A stretch of DNA of 54,313 nucleotides, taken from Dysgonamonadaceae bacterium (GTDB lineage Bacteria; Bacteroidota; Bacteroidia; Bacteroidales; Azobacteroidaceae). Both the position numbers and the translations under genes were made by a program. Each line of letters starts with the position of its first letter. Position 1 is the first letter of the stretch. Positions 8,001 through 54,313 of this stretch are shown piece after piece. Location: NCBI GenBank assembly GCA_031256775.1, contig JAIRPX010000021.1, positions 1-54,313 of the forward strand, given 5' to 3'. The notes beneath the pieces were generated by a model, which had not been told where the DNA came from, made no database searches, and saw only the letters and a program-made list of their open reading frames with translations.

Positions 8001-8388
8001 CATGTATGGCAACAATAACCAGTCGATTGCTGTGAACTGGCGCTGGCTGAAAGACGGCGACCAGACTGAAATACCGCGCGCGCTCTATAACTTCGGCTAT
8101 AACAGTTTGCCGAGCGACCGGTTTGTTGAAGACGGATCATACGTCCGCTTCAAGTTCCTGACATTTATGTTCAATTTCGAGAAAAAACATATTAAAAACT
8201 TGGGATTGAATCAATTAGATCTGTATCTCACGCTTAATGACCTCTTTACTTTTACCAGCTACAGAGGTGTTGATCCTGAAATCATGCAAAACATGAACCA
8301 GCAGGATGGTTTGGTTGGTATCAGCGTTGATAAAAACAGGACTCCGCGCGCTCAGTATTTCACGCTGGGCATTACTGCAGGGTTTTGA
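5032..8388 (+). CDS. SusC/RagA-family TonB-dependent outer-membrane transporter (pair 1)
   Basis: Outer-membrane glycan importer energised by TonB, 1118 residues. A signal peptide of about 25 residues ends in VLAAQ. It is followed by a carboxypeptidase-regulatory-like beta-sandwich (about 27-110, ending LAEVVIV), a plug domain (about 125-265) with the SusC-type strings LRIRGTSSLNAKSEPLIVV and EEITVLKDGASAAIWGARG, and a 22-strand-type barrel ending in the aromatic-containing TLGITAGF. It overlaps the end of the FAS1 gene and is followed 34 bases later by susD, the standard pair order. An alternative ATG at 5041 would shorten it by 3 residues. It forms the transport complex with the SusD protein at 8423. 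Substrate is unknown; context suggests a fucose/galactose and xylose/arabinose-containing glycan. Confidence 0.95.
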   Translation: MKKMKINLKRIVLVFFLCLPVVLAAQEGALITGNVYSEQEGGLVGVTVLEIDKTDRTVSATTSDFSGNFSLQIKNSNNKLSFSYVGFKTAVLQIGSQRKFSVKLDESTTLAEVVIVTQAVHNDGTFAIPKREIAGAVQRINTAELKGLSVASIDDALQGRIAGLDIVGASGNLGAGSTLRIRGTSSLNAKSEPLIVVNDVPFENNISSLDLNNATEEQFANLLNISPDDIEEITVLKDGASAAIWGARGANGVISIRTKKGVKGPTRIQYSYRFSGKQQPSGIPLLNGDEYTMMMKQAYFNPYQQENSAVLPEFSYDPNFYEYENFNNNTDWVKEITQYGFDHDHNLTVSGGGEKATFRMSLGYLSQRGTVIKQSLDRITSRMNFEYRLSDRISFTPEFAVTYVNNHQNLAYDPSDEWNTNNLQSIAYKKMPNVSVFRQDAFGNNTGQFYAIPNIRHQSAYDGIPLLDEKQRRLANPVAYAYLGTNNNKSLRVTPKLSFRFDFLDPASTMLRYNGYLSLDYNSENDNRFYPRELFPDDWTDASLPNRSYMADKAALTVNSDQNITWSPKMENNSSLLIYASWQVETVKNYFQELGKSRLATSSTTDPSLPGDYINFGNGSEERRIMAFLGRAHYSLFGRYILDASFRREGDSRFGRNNLWGNFYGASAKWIMSDEGFMKATKSWLTELGWRIAYGVTGNPPDRNYLYFSRYNGSGSYIDLSAIRPVSLQLANLKWETSSSYNGGFDLSLFDYKFNLDANIYKKRTKDLLLKGLSIPTASGFSSLDYVNAGIIDNNGWELNVNTQKLITFHDWSLDFNFNMANNANKFISLDPSFARSYNKDFVYANDAGYLSRIQENNALGSIYGFRYKGVYQYDKYKDSDGNPNPGTSPFARNADGNIILDGNGDPVPMTFAYGSSMAYTFRGGDAIYEDINHDGTINELDIVYLGNSNPKLNGGFGATVRYKNFSVNAFFNFRYGNKIINQARRDLESMYGNNNQSIAVNWRWLKDGDQTEIPRALYNFGYNSLPSDRFVEDGSYVRFKFLTFMFNFEKKHIKNLGLNQLDLYLTLNDLFTFTSYRGVDPEIMQNMNQQDGLVGISVDKNRTPRAQYFTLGITAGF

Positions 8389-8422: not shown

Positions 8423-10030
8423 ATGTGTAGAAAAAATATCATTAGAATTAAAAATACATTTAAGATAATGCTCATTGTTCTTGCAGCCGGTTTTGCTTCC
8501 TGCAATGACTGGTTTGATTTGCGTCCAATGTCGGATACTATCTCTGAAGACTTTTGGAAAGACGAAAAGGATGTAAGAAGCATGGTTGGCGCATGTTATC
8601 GCGCTATGAATGAGGGCGGTTTTCTCGACAGGCTAATGGTTTGGGGCGAAATTCGTTCCGACAATGTGATGAAAGGTCTGTCGGCTGCCGAAGAACGTAA
8701 TCGCGACGTAACGCGCATTTTGGATTTAACGCTTAATGCTACAAATCAATATGCTTCATGGACAGAGTATTATCAGGTTATCAATTATTGCAATACAGTG
8801 ATTGACTTTGCTCCTGCCGTACTGGAAAAAGATCCAAATTTCACGGAAGCTCAGCTGCACGCTTATCTGGCTGAAGTTAAAGGTATTCGCGCCCTGTGCT
8901 ATTTTATTTTGGTGCGCTCTTTTCGCAATATCCCCTTCTCAACGGAGGCTTTTGTCGATGACAACCGTCCTTTTAATATGCCTCAATCAAGCCCCGACGA
9001 AGTAATTAACTTCCTCATCAACGACTTGAAAGCCGTCGAAAACGATGCTGTTGTTGAATTTTTAGACAGGGCAAGCGACAAGGGTAGAATTACGCGGAAA
9101 GCAATCTGGTGCCTGATTGCAGACATGTTGCTGTGGCAAGGCGAATACGCCGAGTGTATATCATACTGCGACAAAATATTAAATATGTCTGCTGTTTCTG
9201 CAAAAAGCCGTCTTGAACTCGAAAAATCGCCGTCTGAATACTATAACCGTATCTTTATTCAGGGCAATTCTAACGAAAGTATTTTTGAACTGCAATTTGA
9301 ACCGAATTTAGTAATCGGAAATACCGCCGTCCATTCCATGTACAGCATTGGCGAATATAGAGGCTTTTCGGAAAATTACAGAACTTTCGACGCCAAACAT
9401 GAACGTGTTTGCTCCTTCGATTTCGTGACAAAAATTCCACTGTTCAGATCGGCTGACCTGCGATCGAAAGATTTTTACATGCAGGCGGGAAATAATGAAC
9501 GTTTTCCAATCGTGAAATATGTGGGATTGAGAAATACGCGCATGGAAAAACCGGTAACGGAAGCTTACAGCTCAACGCCTCTGCACAGCTGGATTTTCTA
9601 CCGTCTTCCGGATGTTTACCTGATGAAAGCTGAAGCTCTGGTGGAATCCGGCGGCGACCTTGACGAAGCATTAGCTTGCGTATCAAAAAGCTACGACAGG
9701 GCTAATCCCGATCTCGGCGAAAATTCTTTAGTACTGGGAACGAGAGAAGATACGAGAGAACTTGTATTTGAGGAACGTCAGCGGGAATTTCTCTTTGAAG
9801 GCAAACGATATTTCGACCTGCTGAGAAGAGTGAAACGCGAAGGCAACACAAACAGCGTCCTTCCCCTTCTGATACGGAAATATGAAGGCAACGGAATGAG
9901 TTCCAATACTGTTCGTGGTAAATTAAGCGACCTTGACGCCCTCTATATGCCAATCAGCGAGAATGAACTGAAAACAAATCCTCTGCTGCAACAAAATCCT
10001 TTTTATGTTTCAACTTCAATAATCAAATAA
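8423..10030 (+). CDS. SusD/RagB-family glycan-binding lipoprotein (pair 1)
   Basis: Surface lipoprotein of 535 residues that forms the lid of the SusC transporter and binds oligosaccharide. The lipobox is GFASCNDWFD, with Cys27. The N-terminal pattern LRPMSDTISEDFWKDEKDVRSMVGACYRAM, seen in parts here as SEDFWKDEKDV and GACYRAM, and the C-terminal FEGKRYFDLLRRVKR are SusD hallmarks. It starts 34 bases after susC; the short spacer carries an AT-rich AATTAGGAATTAAG-type sequence. Length is typical. It works with the product of 5032-8388. Confidence 0.95.
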   Translation: MCRKNIIRIKNTFKIMLIVLAAGFASCNDWFDLRPMSDTISEDFWKDEKDVRSMVGACYRAMNEGGFLDRLMVWGEIRSDNVMKGLSAAEERNRDVTRILDLTLNATNQYASWTEYYQVINYCNTVIDFAPAVLEKDPNFTEAQLHAYLAEVKGIRALCYFILVRSFRNIPFSTEAFVDDNRPFNMPQSSPDEVINFLINDLKAVENDAVVEFLDRASDKGRITRKAIWCLIADMLLWQGEYAECISYCDKILNMSAVSAKSRLELEKSPSEYYNRIFIQGNSNESIFELQFEPNLVIGNTAVHSMYSIGEYRGFSENYRTFDAKHERVCSFDFVTKIPLFRSADLRSKDFYMQAGNNERFPIVKYVGLRNTRMEKPVTEAYSSTPLHSWIFYRLPDVYLMKAEALVESGGDLDEALACVSKSYDRANPDLGENSLVLGTREDTRELVFEERQREFLFEGKRYFDLLRRVKREGNTNSVLPLLIRKYEGNGMSSNTVRGKLSDLDALYMPISENELKTNPLLQQNPFYVSTSIIK

Positions 10031-28950: not shown

Positions 28951-30567
28951 ATGAAACAGGTTTTTATAAAATACCGTTTGCTGTGGTTTTGGTTAATTGG
29001 CTGTCTGATTATTGTTTTACGGCGTACCGATGCTTTGTTTTACCCGCAGTTCTGGTCTGAAGACGGATTTGAGTTTTTTTACGAAGCTTTTAAATCCGGA
29101 TGGTCTTCTTTTATAACGCCTTACGCCGGATATCTTCATATTATTCCCCGTTCAATCACTTATTTAGCTTTCTTTATAAGTGAAAATTCAGCGGGAATAG
29201 CCCTGATGCCTCTCATTATGAATATATGCGCCATTGCAATTAACAGTATCTGCGCTGTTGCTGTTTGTTCCGACAGATTCAAATGGCTTGGTAGCATCTA
29301 TTTACGAATGACGCTGGGCTTTTTCATCCTTCTCTTTCCCGATTGTCATGAAGTGCTTGGTAATGTAACAAATATTCACTGGTGGCTTGGAGCACTTACG
29401 TTTTTGCTGTTGTGGGATTTGATTCGGAATCGGAAAATGCCGGACTGGACAGATACGGTTATTCTCTCTCTCGTCGTCCTTACAACTCCCAATGGATTGC
29501 TGATACTGCCTGTAATTCTTGTCTGTTATTGGCTGAAACACAGATTCCGGCTGACATTCGATGCGTTGAAAATTCTTCCTGTTTTTATATTTTTTTCCAT
29601 ACAGCTTTTCTTGATGCTGGAATCCCGCGTTCCGAAAGATAAAGATTTGATAATGTTGATTTACAATGCGGTTGATTATGTTTTTGTCCAGCTGTTCGCT
29701 CATTTAATTTTCGGTCAGCTTCTAAATCAGACAGGACTGTTTATTACCGGTATTCTATTTTTTGTTTTCTTTTGCTTTCTTGCGGCGAAATTATTCAAAA
29801 GCTTGTATTTTCCGGTTATTTTTCTGTTTTTACTGACAGGACTATACGTTTTTGGAGCAGAAGTTGCTGAACCTGCATATCGCTATGGACGCTATATCTT
29901 TTTACCGGTCATAATTATTTTCCTTGTTTTACTGTTGGGATTTGTTTATTTCCTGCAACAGAAAAGAAGTGCATTTAAAGTGTTGAATATTAGCGTTCTT
30001 TGTATTATTTTCCTGTTTATGTCGTTTCGTATTATCCGTAATTATAAAACTCCTGATTTTGAACGTTTTCCATGGAAAGAGGAGGCGTCCCTGTATGCTT
30101 CTGATGGAAAAAGCTTTTTCCATTTTCCTATCAATAATGATTACTGGACAGTAAGCATCCCAACATCCCAAGACAGGGGAACTTACCTTTCCGGATACGA
30201 CATGTTTTCCATTGATGCGGACACCTTGCGCGGCGCTCAAAATTTCAGGATAAAAAACAGTTCGGAAAATACATCGCGCATCTACAATCCTGGAATAAGC
30301 TATCAGCTTCCTGACGCTATGTTTATTGATTATTGCTGCATTGATTTTGAATCGTTTTTCGGAGTAAAAAGAATCAGGTTGTGTTTTTTTGAGGATGAAA
30401 ATGCAGGAGCTTCAATCGTGTTTAATGTGGAAAATGAAAACCTCATTCAGGTAAATTCACGCATGTCTGCCTTGAAAACAAAGTTTATCCGCATTGACTT
30501 TTTAGAAAAATCCGCATTGGATAATCCTTTAATAATCAAATCGATTACTTATTATTCCAGACAATAG
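28951..30567 (+). CDS. Polytopic membrane protein, GT-C glycosyltransferase-like
   Basis: 538 residues with about ten hydrophobic helices in the first 355 residues and a soluble C-terminal domain of about 180 residues. The first loop after helix 1 has acidic FWSEDGFEFFYEAF, resembling the metal/catalytic acidic loop of GT-C enzymes that use polyprenyl-phosphate sugars; this is the main reason for the call. No family was firmly recognised. It lies 19 bases downstream of the GT2 gene and is the last gene before a repeat-rich spacer. An alternative is a generic membrane protein of unknown function in the same pathway. Confidence 0.6.
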   Translation: MKQVFIKYRLLWFWLIGCLIIVLRRTDALFYPQFWSEDGFEFFYEAFKSGWSSFITPYAGYLHIIPRSITYLAFFISENSAGIALMPLIMNICAIAINSICAVAVCSDRFKWLGSIYLRMTLGFFILLFPDCHEVLGNVTNIHWWLGALTFLLLWDLIRNRKMPDWTDTVILSLVVLTTPNGLLILPVILVCYWLKHRFRLTFDALKILPVFIFFSIQLFLMLESRVPKDKDLIMLIYNAVDYVFVQLFAHLIFGQLLNQTGLFITGILFFVFFCFLAAKLFKSLYFPVIFLFLLTGLYVFGAEVAEPAYRYGRYIFLPVIIIFLVLLLGFVYFLQQKRSAFKVLNISVLCIIFLFMSFRIIRNYKTPDFERFPWKEEASLYASDGKSFFHFPINNDYWTVSIPTSQDRGTYLSGYDMFSIDADTLRGAQNFRIKNSSENTSRIYNPGISYQLPDAMFIDYCCIDFESFFGVKRIRLCFFEDENAGASIVFNVENENLIQVNSRMSALKTKFIRIDFLEKSALDNPLIIKSITYYSRQ

Positions 30568-30634
30568 CAAACTCTCATAATTTTAGAGGACAGAGAATTA
30601 TAAATTATGAATTATGAATTATGAATTAAGCTGG

Positions 30635-31139
30635 CGCGGCTTTATATTTATAAGCCGTGCCTTCATGCTTTGCACCACGTGTCTCGTTTAAAAAACTTTT
30701 CTCGCGTTACTTCGTAAAACAGCTACTCTGCAAATTCTGTTAAACCGTGCTGAACAAAAGCAGCGTAGCTGCAACATCTTTGTAGCCGTGTGCGTAAGCG
30801 CACGGTTGGAAAACACAGACCTTTCCCTGAGCAGCGTAGCTGCGACATCTTTTTTAACAGTAAATTATACTCTGCACGGCATGGTTTTGTGCAACGTCAT
30901 TGCGAAGGCGAAGCCTGAAGCAATCCAGTACTAAAAAACTGACAACTGACAACTGACAACTGACAACTAATTTTTGGATTGCTTCGCTAACGCTCGCAAT
31001 GACGTTGCACAAAATTAAACCGCGTAAAGTTATAATTCATAAACATGAAATGAATAAAAATTAAGGTATCGCAGCTACGCTGCTCTATTTATATTATATA
31101 CATCCTTTACCGTGCGCTTACGCACACGGCTACAAAGAT
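30635..31139. repeat. About 500-bp dispersed repeat, copy A: concentric inverted repeats
   Basis: The element is built as nested palindromes around a tandem spacer. The outermost arms are 30776-30806 and 31109-31139, a perfect 31-bp inverted repeat containing CCGTGTGCGTAAGCGCACGG. Next are GAGCAGCGTAGCTGCGA (about 30829-30845) against the box at 31067-31085. Then come arms TATACTCTGCACGG...GCAACGTCATTGCGAAGGCG...GCAATCC (30867-30926) against 30975-31032. The centre has about four tandem ACTGACA units (30938-30969). It is over 90 percent identical by eye to 53823-54313. It has no ORF and no transposase, so it fits a MITE-like or REP-composite element. Confidence 0.88.
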
Positions 31140-31394
31140 ACTGGCGCTACGCGCCTATTAAATTCTTCCTTTTTAGACTCGCTAACATTTATGCTTAACA
31201 CAGGTTTTTGCAGGTGAGCCTAAAACACACTATAACTCAACAAAATCAACATTCATTTTGTTATTAGGATAATGAGAACTAAAAAAAAGAATGACTGCAC
31301 TGAGAAAAAGTTGAACATGAACAAAATAAAAAACCAGGAATCTCAGCAACAGCCATTCTATACGTATATCAAAACTGTGCGATGATATTTAAAA

Positions 31395-31592
31395 ATGAAA
31401 AAGCGTGGGACTTTAACTTTATCTGGTTTAGAGGTCTTAGACAACCTTGGTACAAACAAGCCAGCCCACGCCCTAAGGCGTGAGCGTTGACTATTTACCC
31501 TTGTACCATTTTGAAATTGTCTAAGTTTCCAAACCAAGAATATTAGCTAACGCTTTCTAAAAAAACATTTTCCAAACGGAGTTAATTCCGAT
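31395..31592 (-). ncRNA. Structured small RNA candidate, 6S-RNA-like in shape
   Basis: A promoter of exact Bacteroidetes consensus (31600-31631) reads into a region that folds as one long interrupted hairpin. Pairs, from outside in: 31550-31557 with 31397-31406 (closing stem GAAAGCGT); 31531-31536 with 31424-31429 (TGGTTT); 31517-31525 with 31436-31444 (9 perfect bp, CTTAGACAA); 31501-31508 with 31447-31455; and an apical 9-bp stem GCTCACGCC/GGCGTGGGC with loop TTAG. A large internal bubble separates the closing stem from the rest, as in 6S RNA. The transcript would end in CGCTTTTTCATTTTT, a T-rich terminator. Predicted size about 195-200 nt. Identity as 6S is inference. Confidence 0.6.
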
Positions 31593-31599
31593 TAGACCA

Positions 31600-31631
31600 C
31601 AAATGTAATTATAATTATGCGATTATACAAA
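31600..31631 (-). promoter_or_regulatory. Consensus promoter for the small RNA
   Basis: On the minus strand TTTG (31628-31631) is followed by exactly 20 bases and TACATTTG (31600-31607), the full TTTG-N20-TAnnTTTG consensus. The start point would be near 31592, just before the structured RNA. Confidence 0.7.
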
Positions 31632-31650
31632 TATCAGGTTAAAAAAAATT

Positions 31651-32106
31651 GTGTTGGCAGAAATAAAACGATTAAATCATTTTTTAAGGCGATATATTTT
31701 TCAGAAAAAAACCTGTTTGACGGTCGTTATATGGGATTATGAAATATACGTACATCCACTGCATGGCGAAAAGGAGATGGAAAAAAATATCGAAAGCTGC
31801 AACGTACTGTTGAAGCACGACCCAGAAGCCAAGCTGAAACTGTTACCTGTCTTGGACGTAAATATAAATACAGAACTTGCTGACATCGCAACGCGAGAAA
31901 GATTTTATCCGAAATCCTATTTGGAAAAATTTCCTTTGAAAAATGCCGACTGTATGTATGGTAAAAAAGTGGTAGAGTTTGATGTGTGGGGTATGAACCC
32001 TTTTTCTGCACGGGTTGCAAACCCACGCCAGTGCGTGTCTCCGTTTGCTGGCGCTTTGCGCCACGTGTCTCGTTTAAATCATCAAATCGCTCATTATTCC
32101 GTCTGA
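31651..32106 (+). pseudogene. Decayed ORF, possible remnant of a nuclease-toxin-like domain
   Basis: An open frame of 151 codons starting at a GTG. Residues about 38-116 look like protein (EKEMEKNIESCNVLLKHD, KNADCMYGKKVVEFDVWG). This recalls, weakly, CdiA-type or phage-associated nuclease domains that carry a NAD-x-x-x-GK-x-VEF core. After residue about 118 the frame runs through palindromic repeat DNA (GGCGCTTTGCGCC, CACGTGTCTCGTTTAAA) and then antisense into the end of hemW. No good start or upstream part is present, so it is read as a fragment truncated by the repeat. Confidence 0.35.
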
Positions 32107-33189
32107 AACAAACAAGCCCTTTCGTGTAAGGCGCAAATGCCCACCAGTAGATTCCAGCATTTGATTTTTGATATATTTTTCTGCCTGCTTCAGGCAGTAT
32201 TTTTCTTTTTCATTTCCAAAAAGAGAAATCAGTTTTTTCAAGTTAATACCTTCTTTTGTTCGCAAGCCTGTGATAATTAAGTCATTATAAGCTGTTTTCT
32301 CATCCAGGACTTCAACTTCCCAGTCAGACATTGCATAGTCTGCGTCGTGCGATTTCCTGTTCCATCGCCGTTCAAAACCGTTGTAAGAATGAGCTGCAGC
32401 GCCTATTCCCAAATAATGTTCGCCATTCCAATAGGAAGTATTATGCATGGAACGATACCCCTGCCTTGCAAAATTTGATATTTCGTAGTGTTCAAATCCC
32501 GATATTGACAAAGTATCAATCAATACGTTAAAAAACTGAACGCTAAGCTCTTCGCTTACAGGACAAACATTTCCCCGTAGCATTAATTCAAATAGTTGCG
32601 TATCCTCTTCATAGCTCAAATGATAGGCTGAAATATGTTGCACATTTAAATCAACTGCCTGTTGGAGAGTTTTTTCCCATATCGACAACGTTTGCCCCGG
32701 CAAGCCATACATCAGATCGATGCTTATATTCCCGAATCCAGCCTCTTGCAAACGTTTAACCACATTCACGGCAGATGCAGAATCGTGTCTGCGGCGCAAA
32801 AATTGCAGTTCTGAATCGTTAAAACTCTGTATGCCGAGACTTATCCTGTTGAAAGGCAAATCTTTAATTGAATCTAAATAAGGCAATGTTATATCGTCGG
32901 GATTAGCTTCAAGGGTTATTTCTAAAGATTCCAGATATGTTGCTGGAAAGCAATGATTGAATGTTTGAAAAATTTTTTCAAAATCGCTTGCAGATAATAA
33001 AGACGGAGTGCCGCCGCCAAAATATACAGTCCTGATAATTTGTCCTTTCAGGTAATCCTTCCTGCATTTCAGTTCTTCACACAGTGCATCTACATATTTT
33101 TCCTTTTCTGTCAATGAGGTAGAGGAAAAAAAATCGCAATAGATACACCTTGAACGACAAAAAGGAATATGAAAATAAACGCCTGCCAT
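32074..33189 (-). CDS. hemW: Radical SAM heme chaperone HemW (HemN-like)
   Basis: 371 residues. The N-terminus GVYFHIPFCRSRCIYCDF gives the CxxxCxxC [4Fe-4S] cluster of radical SAM proteins, Phe after the third Cys pair as in HemW rather than HemN. VYFGGGTPSLL, EANPD and the C-terminal HemN-like region follow. The protein is thought to insert heme in respiratory enzymes; it is often misnamed coproporphyrinogen oxidase. The stop codon TAA is formed by the CTCGTTTAAA end of a repeat, so the last residues MSDLMI may be modified from the ancestral end. The gene is divergent from the small gene at 33297, with a -7 element TAACTTTG at 33215-33222. Confidence 0.92.
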   Translation of the reverse strand: MAGVYFHIPFCRSRCIYCDFFSSTSLTEKEKYVDALCEELKCRKDYLKGQIIRTVYFGGGTPSLLSASDFEKIFQTFNHCFPATYLESLEITLEANPDDITLPYLDSIKDLPFNRISLGIQSFNDSELQFLRRRHDSASAVNVVKRLQEAGFGNISIDLMYGLPGQTLSIWEKTLQQAVDLNVQHISAYHLSYEEDTQLFELMLRGNVCPVSEELSVQFFNVLIDTLSISGFEHYEISNFARQGYRSMHNTSYWNGEHYLGIGAAAHSYNGFERRWNRKSHDADYAMSDWEVEVLDEKTAYNDLIITGLRTKEGINLKKLISLFGNEKEKYCLKQAEKYIKNQMLESTGGHLRLTRKGLFVSDGIMSDLMI

Positions 33190-53652: not shown

Positions 53653-54313
53653 CGAAAAACGTAACACATTTCCAAAAGTATCAAAAGAAAATGTATTTTT
53701 TGCCATTAAAAAAAAAGAAATGTTGAAAAAGAGATGAAAATTTAATTCTTGTGTCGGCAGTTGAGCAATATGCAAACTAAAGGCTCACCCGCAAAACCCT
53801 GTGTCTATGGCTTTCCTGCTGACGCGGCTTTATAAGCCGTGCCTTCATGCTTTGCGCCACGTGTCTCGTTTAAAAAACTTTTCTCGCGTTACTTAGTAAA
53901 ACAGCTACTCTGCAAATTCTTTTAAATCGTGCTGAACAAAAGCAGCGTAGCTGCAACATCTTTGTAGCCGTGTGCGTAAGCGCACGGTTGGAAAACACAG
54001 ACCTTTCCCTGAGCAGCGTAGCTGCAACATCTTTTTTTAACAGCAAATTATACTCTGCACGGCATGGTTTTGTGCAACGTCATTGCGAAGGCAAAGCCTG
54101 AAGCAATCCAGTACTAAAAAACTGACAACTGACAACTGACAACTGATAACTAATTTCTGGATTGCTTCGCTAACGCTCGGATGACGATGCACAAAATTAA
54201 ACCGCGTAAAGTATAATTCATAAACATGAAATGAATAAAAATTAAGGTATCGCAGCTACGCTGCTCTGTTTATATTCCGTACATCTTTACCGTGCGCTTA
54301 CGCACACGGCTAC
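53653..54313. other. Gene-free right end with repeat copy B
   Basis: 661 bases. The first 130 bases have A/T tracts without an ORF. At 53782-53804 the sequence AGGCTCACCCGCAAAACCCTGTGT is the reverse complement, with few changes, of 31198-31221 next to repeat copy A. The 500-bp element starts at 53823 and continues beyond the window. Confidence 0.75.
53823..54313. repeat. About 500-bp dispersed repeat, copy B (cut by the window end)
   Basis: Same direction and order of boxes as copy A at 30635-31139: GGCTTTATAAGCC palindrome, two GCAGCGTAGCTGC boxes, TATACTCTGCACGG arm, central ACTGACA tandem (54121-54152), right arm and the CGTGCGCTTACGCACACGG box at the very end. It differs from copy A at scattered positions, for example the spacer unit ACTGATA and GGATGACGATG in place of GCAATGACGTTG. 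Confidence 0.9.

Follow-up and report, generated by a model that had tools for sequence, protein, structure and literature searches.

The locus and its RNA element

The window, which is the whole analysed stretch of 54,313 nucleotides from a Dysgonamonadaceae bacterium (contig JAIRPX010000021.1, assembly GCA_031256775.1), carries on its minus strand a structured RNA element. As a sequence-only reading of the same DNA had described, the element lies between a repeat (30740-31165) on one side and an open reading frame on the other (32074-33189, minus strand, putative hemW). The repeat, about 400 bp in length, occurs twice in the window (30740-31165 and 53922-54313, 96% identity), with the second copy reaching the contig end; it is itself partly palindromic (67% inverted) and is adjoined by a heptanucleotide tandem, AACTGAC, present about four times at 30937-30971. 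A similar short tandem (AAGAACT/AGTTAAG-like) is seen between the RNA and the gene in copies from another genome, G013.

The perfect promoter of the sequence-only reading matches the sequence exactly, with TTTG-N20-TACATTTG at 31600-31631 of the minus strand; we take this arrangement to be the Bacteroidota housekeeping-type promoter consensus. The long interrupted hairpin is also real, covering 31402-31554 of the minus strand and a few flanking bases, and the U-rich 3' end is seen at the end of the element. The hairpin had been placed about 8 bases from the promoter, but it starts about 45 bases past the -7 box, and it is the expected transcription start that the distance of about 8 bases fits. 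On the minus strand, positions 31395-31602 fold at -75.7 kcal/mol, while their shuffles average -45.9 (z -7.1; none of 200 does as well), whereas the plus strand of the same stretch reaches only -52.7 kcal/mol (z -3.6). The minus strand is therefore the likely RNA strand. The parts of the window copy are as follows.

31628..31631, minus strand: -33 promoter element TTTG, from the sequence
31600..31607, minus strand: -7 promoter element TACATTTG, from the sequence
31402..31554, minus strand: conserved RNA core, matched by covariance model R1 at 150.6 bits
31535..31554, minus strand: segment 1 (E-arm), partner of segment 2 in the twin-hairpin fold or of segment 4 in the rod (P1)
31482..31505, minus strand: segment 2 (A-arm), partner of segment 1, or of segment 3 (P5)
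31452..31472, minus strand: segment 3 (B-arm), partner of segment 2 (P5), or of segment 4 (terminator-like H2)
31402..31426, minus strand: segment 4 (C-arm), containing AAGUCCC
31464..31485, minus strand: apical hairpin P5, whose U-G pair is kept by 18 of 19 sequences from the genus
31519..31525, minus strand: P3 5' strand, CUUAGAC
31436..31442, minus strand: P3 3' strand, GUCUAAG
31391..31402, minus strand: U-rich tail (UUUUUCAUUUUU), at and beyond the end of segment 4, from the sequence

Distribution and copy number

A DNA search of 97 genomes found the core at many places in relatives, with strong matches that lack the promoter part. Model R1 was built from 19 copies, the window's included, which bears on the finding that the window copy is the top match in its own genome (150.6 bits, E 4e-36). 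At E <= 0.01, R1 finds the element in at least 32 of 38 genomes of the genus, and three of these hold at least 78, 79 and 80 matches; the window's own genome has six copies at this threshold and seven at E <= 1. Across the class, at least 73 of 295 genomes have a match to R1 at E <= 1e-4, and a second model, R2, finds the element in at least 39 of 296 genomes at the phylum level, of which ten do not belong to the class. The window's own genome is part of each of these three counts, and all are lower bounds, the best 80 candidates per genome having been scored in the genus and the best 10 in the class and phylum. Among the candidates scored, no match came from six genomes of the genus or from most of those in the class and phylum, where the filters were stricter. 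Strict-pattern matches on 18 named contigs belong to Bacteroidales metagenome-assembled genomes (Dysgonamonadaceae, Prevotellaceae, Tannerella and Alistipes) and to one record of Bacteroidia bacterium MS502-62.

For the comparisons below, 152 model matches, less three that repeat a copy already counted (two in L075/L076, and L125, which equals L026), leave 149 copies; L077 and L078, two of one group of 83 sources, have no match at E <= 1e-4 and fall outside this set. Searches by blastn of a plasmid collection with one leader (L080) and of a phage collection with another (L097) gave no match. Viral contigs yielded 36 pattern matches, of which two were confirmed by the model, at 2610-2769 of L192 (80.9 bits) and 10279-10439 of L217 (68.8 bits). 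The element may thus ride on prophages, or these may be bacterial contigs that are mislabelled. Contig ends were counted at 142 places in three genomes (G002, G013 and G033) among the matches listed. On the downstream side the contig stops less than 1 kb from the RNA at 37 of 68 places, on the upstream side at 5 of 74; repetitive paralogous genes and spacers behind the RNA may be the reason.

Two mutually exclusive folds

In the rod fold (P1 to P5), segment 2 pairs with segment 3 and segment 1 with segment 4, while stems P2-P4 join the two halves. Forcing segment 3 onto segment 4 exposes instead two complete tandem hairpins, 1:2 and 3:4. Compensatory changes in relatives, which had been named as a check on the hairpin, were found: 21 of the 45 rod pairs changed on both sides among the 19 copies, where rod covariation is 0.431 compared to 0.166 when shuffled and at most 0.067 when slid. 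When each strand was scored with its own rather than permuted partners, in a class set of 56 of the 149 copies, both hairpins of the alternative fold stood out (1:2, z -15.5; 3:4, z -13.3; all 149 copies behave similarly), as did P2 (z -23), P3 (z -24), P5 (z -5.3) and the downstream pseudoknot described below (z -7.0). P1, pairing segments 1 and 4, hardly varies and covaries weakly in the class-level set (z -2.7). Shared ancestry can inflate z values obtained by shuffling or permutation, an effect that five wrong-arm controls in the same 56 copies (z -1.1 to 2.0) lessen without fully removing.

A structure-blind alignment, which takes in 63 of the 149 copies, gives the same picture for the outer pairs of each fold. 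Of these, 13 were counted in one fold and 12 in the other; they are paired in 94.6% and 93.9% of cases, respectively, and in both folds double changes exceed those in any of 500 shuffles. For instance, AGCGU/ACGCU in 1:2 becomes AGCAU/AUGCU in L174 and L175, and GCGUGGG/CCCACGC in 3:4 becomes GCGGGCUUAC/GUAAGUCCGC in L068. The U-G pair of P5, retained in 18 of 19 sequences at the genus level, is kept in 51 of 62 in a wider alignment. Since segment 4 offers a C at the position where P5 has this U-G pair, the 3:4 helix is the stronger one at this point. Around each of the P3 strands, small local hairpins also outscore shuffles (9.6 versus 6.7 and 9.5 versus 6.2), a result that suggests, at most, that loops touch each other in the twin-hairpin fold.

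When the sequence is cut off after segment 2, the predicted fold is 1:2 in 147 of 149 copies, and for the complete core it is the rod, again in 147 of 149; a kinetic switch would be expected to show its folds in this order. With 3:4 imposed, the fold is less stable than the rod by a median of 13.5 kcal/mol (117 of 149 copies), and given so large a difference the terminator fold could win only by kinetics. For the window copy, the prefix folds no more stably than its shuffles (z -1.24).

A leader with promoter, U-run and pseudoknot

An exact TANNTTTG occurs within 160 nt upstream of the core in 124 of 148 copies, as against 12.5% of Markov controls and 31 of 148 on the reverse strand; at 45-110 nt before the core the counts are 115 of 148 and, on the reverse strand, 14 of 148. 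Gene direction was assessed in the 110 copies that have 1200 nt or more of downstream sequence, using as control the opposite strand leaving the 5' side of the 80 copies with at least 1200 nt upstream. In 100 of the 110 it is the RNA strand that carries the longest open frame, and in 10 it is the other strand. In 65 of 110 copies, an ORF of 60 or more codons begins no more than 100 nt from the core, and in 36 it does so at 40-70 nt, compared to 9 of 80 and 3 of 80 in the control. Hydrophobic N-terminal stretches are found in 68 of 108 downstream ORFs versus 11 of 62 on the opposite strand. Judged by these sequence patterns, the element is a 5' leader RNA, in which a promoter, a core of about 155 nt, a U-run and usually a pseudoknot partner precede a gene.

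The U-run directly abuts the core. In 143 of 149 copies, the 10 nt that begin with the last core base contain at least 6 T, versus 7% of control windows. As in an attenuator, then, a terminator-like helix is followed by a U-run and excludes another conserved helix. A consensus terminator scan of the window listed the apical hairpin P5 but not 3:4, which has a longer loop than the scan allows. Beyond the U-run, a strong partner for a pseudoknot lies 12-48 nt past the core in 103 of 148 copies and is often near the start codon; at a distance of 100-136 nt, used as control, 17 of 144 have one. In such intact relatives, the AAGUCCC of segment 4 makes its additional pairing with this strand. The partner covaries with the core (own 14.48, permuted 12.43, sd 0.19, 148 copies).

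The pseudoknot is missing in some copies, including the window's and methylase-linked ones. In a variant that has U as the first and A as the last base of P1 (9 of 63 aligned copies show this U-A), a hairpin of the form U-run/GUG...CAC/A-run, seen by eye just 5' of the start codon, replaces it. DNA methylase or restriction genes lie behind five of the ten scanned copies of this type (L087, L089, L097, L173 and L180); the other five proteins have no Pfam match.

Downstream genes

When 96 of 121 downstream ORFs were submitted to Pfam and PADLOC, 67 Pfam families had a hit among the 96 proteins, and 11 of these families were found in more than one protein. The most frequent were Fib_succ_major (6), TonB plug (4), CarbopepD_reg_2 (4), HlyD_3 (4) and DNA methylase (3); Eco57I and HsdR N-terminal domains occur once each. 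The genes behind the leader are mixed, with secreted proteins, exporters, TonB receptors and DNA methylases among them, and suggest no ligand. Where the gene encodes a TonB receptor, 234-498 nt separate it from the leader. In L023, the leader is followed by a HlyD/C39-peptidase transporter frame (assigned by Pfam) and, after it, by a small helix-turn-helix protein and a GG-type peptide, a layout that L024 and L034 resemble by eye. The window's own genome has an exporter homologue (C156, 36% identity), and inspection by eye of the 162 nt available upstream of it revealed no leader. In L040, two leaders about 800 nt apart (8092-8247 and 8909-9064) each lie directly 5' of a near-identical small helix-turn-helix gene.

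Short ORFs are not generally enriched in the 70 nt upstream of the core (59 of 149 copies, 65.2 in shuffled sequence). A minimal ORF, AUG-N3-UAA/UAG, is found there in 34 of 149 copies versus 11.4 in shuffles, perhaps because of a motif, GAYATAA, that occurs just before the core in the same 70 nt (44 of 149 versus 6.4). Given the enriched minimal ORF, a link to translation may exist; control by a leader peptide, against which the short ORFs in general speak, keeps a small chance.

The window copy itself is nearest to the exporter-locus leaders of relatives (87% to L002 and 81% to L003 in the DNA search); exporter genes lie behind such related leaders in L023 and L024. Its U-run is followed by no pseudoknot strand, and 30241-31401 is free of minus-strand ORFs that reach 60 codons. 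It thus looks like a cut-off leader, which keeps promoter, core and U-run and has lost both the pseudoknot partner and the following gene, and as such it is probably an orphan that gives only a short transcript. A gene remnant downstream was considered and rejected, 31161-31400 having no blastn match in the fetched loci; the remaining downstream flank matches short or repeated stretches.

Comparison with 6S RNA and other Rfam families

The sequence-only reading had proposed the 6S RNA or another regulatory RNA of this lineage. The second half of this proposal is supported and the first is not. Covariance models for 6S and 6S-Flavo, run as that reading had suggested, have no match in 31380-31640 at E up to 10. 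In the whole genome, the best score for 6S-Flavo (RF01685) is 20.4 bits, elsewhere than at the window element and far from the gathering cut-off of 85, and 6S (RF00013, cut-off 46.4 bits) has no match at E up to 10. Neither model gives a match over its cut-off in this genome, whose own 6S RNA is therefore either unrecognised or missing from the assembly. A 6S RNA is present in one or a few free-standing copies and is not the leader of unrelated genes, whereas the element has six copies in its own genome and at least 80 in relatives, mostly before genes. It does share with 6S and 6S-Flavo RNAs a long, irregular, interrupted hairpin of similar length, but it differs from them in its leader context and in its alternative fold with a U-run. 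With no model match here or over the cut-off genome-wide, and with a multi-copy leader in hand, we reject 6S RNA, its chance of being the right identification being practically nil.

No family of Rfam 15 matches the window core (31380-31640, E up to 10), and a wider stretch of 521 bases has only four sub-threshold matches, to unrelated families and all outside the core. Over the cores of 18 relatives (E up to 1) and 20 further loci (E up to 0.1), none reaches its gathering score; the sole overlap with any core is rli51 in L006, at 31.2 bits against a cut-off of 48.

Mechanism and alternative explanations

From the sequence comparisons, we propose that the element is a cis-acting, two-state leader RNA of Bacteroidota and most likely a transcription attenuator, a reading that we hold with somewhat more confidence than doubt. 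In this scheme, hairpin 1:2 would form first during transcription. By default 3:4 would follow, transcription would stop and a short RNA would be made, of about 195 nt for the window copy. A signal, which could be a ligand, a protein, or a pausing or elongation factor, would favour rearrangement to the rod, which would keep segment 4 from segment 3 and let the polymerase read on; the pseudoknot would then form and the downstream gene be expressed. In a trp-type attenuator, likewise, 1:2 and 3:4 (with its U-run) compete against 2:3, with a leader peptide ahead of or over segment 1. The four-segment scheme is the same, and read-through would decide expression here too. The element differs in that short leader ORFs are generally unenriched apart from AUG-N3-stop (34 of 149 versus 11.4), segment 1 also pairs with segment 4, the internal loops are conserved and a pseudoknot lies downstream. 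Riboswitches with terminator expression platforms, which are 5' leaders that bind a specific small-molecule ligand, resemble it in leader position, in conserved internal loops amid variable stems and in the alternative terminator-like helix; the heterogeneous targets that suggest no ligand, the at least 80 copies per genome and the lack of any Rfam match to the core at cut-off set the element apart.

In a different role, the main target of the RNA would be translation or mRNA stability, with pseudoknot and rod protecting the 5' end or gating ribosomes and the U-run being incidental. The covariation of the partner (14.48 versus 12.43 permuted, 148 copies) and its position (12-48 nt past the core in 103 of 148 versus 17 of 144, often near the start codon) agree with such a role. 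Nevertheless, it leaves unexplained both the covariation of 1:2 and 3:4 and the U-run right behind 3:4 in 143 of 149 copies, and the five methylase or restriction copies have no partner near the core by eye, with the exception of a shorter-spaced one in L173; we think this role unlikely, if the least so among the alternatives. Processive antitermination, for which put, EAR and LoaP are the natural comparisons, would have the RNA recruit an antitermination machinery (put/EAR-like, or as a loading site for a NusG paralogue) on horizontally moved operons. Accessory genes such as exporters, surface proteins and DNA methylases do lie downstream, and some head operons, but several targets look like single short genes and the alternative 3:4 helix is not predicted by this model, which makes it improbable.

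Slightly more improbable still is that the element is a small RNA acting in trans, whose typical form would be that of the window copy, with promoter, core and U-run but no gene. This copy does have a promoter and U-run with no minus-strand ORF of at least 60 codons in 30241-31401, and it is the best-scoring copy in its genome, although R1 was partly built from it; other copies precede a same-strand gene far above control (100 of 110 longest frames). Multiple copies, finally, had been named in the sequence-only reading as a sign of a mobile palindrome. The element is indeed multi-copy in relatives, but the copies covary and sit before genes, which argues for a multi-copy RNA and against a plain palindrome. 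MITEs and attC sites work as DNA, with pairing that is indifferent to strand and with site duplications at the ends. That it is a mobile palindrome or recombination site (MITE or attC-like) with no RNA function, to which its dispersal in at least 80 copies in one genome, the adjoining repeats and the contig breaks downstream (37 of 68 versus 5 of 74) would be congenial, is very improbable, because folding is strand-specific, U-G pairs are conserved, promoter and orientation to genes are kept, and the stems have diverged yet remain paired. A plain palindrome or attC site was discarded as the main reading on the grounds of strand-specific folding, U-G pairs, the promoter and genes on the RNA strand.

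Relation to described RNAs and significance

Other structured RNAs have been reported from the same phylum. In the accessible part of a study of Flavobacterium psychrophilum (PMC9723704), 64 structured 5' regions are described, some conserved in the family Flavobacteriaceae and without Rfam hits, and Flavo-1 is said to occur in either orientation. These regions resemble the element as structured 5' elements; as they are known here by description, overlap with it is possible. Flavo-1 has no match in the scanned loci (the window, 18 relatives and 20 further loci). Candidate RNAs of human-microbiome Bacteroidetes, as far as the accessible text of PMC8040213 describes them, are palindromic with predicted terminators, and one of them, HMP2_1032 (106 bp), is commonly near TonB protein genes. 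They share these features, the phylum and the TonB genes with the element and differ in being shorter; known by description alone, they could also be identical with it. No description that could be equated with the element was found in the full-text literature or in the accessible parts of PMC9723704, PMC8040213 and PMC11109978, a scope that leaves subscription papers and preprints outside. By the Rfam 15 and literature searches, and leaving aside the RNAs listed in PMC9723704 and PMC8040213, the element appears to be undescribed.

The attenuator reading may be extended, though here our doubts outweigh our confidence, to a single RNA switch of a new class, in which kinetic competition between rod and twin hairpins would control dispersed accessory genes across Bacteroidota in response to one shared cue, with at least 80 copies per genome and with gene and leader moving as a cassette. 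The accessory genes meant are those for surface and secreted proteins, bacteriocin-type exporters, TonB receptors and DNA methylases. In any event, this is a large leader RNA whose two folds are both kept by compensatory change, which is present in tens of copies in some genomes and which has no match in Rfam 15. Its many natural variants are available for finding the signal and for studies of kinetic RNA switching. Such an RNA would place surface, export and DNA-methylase genes under shared control in a phylum common in gut and soil.
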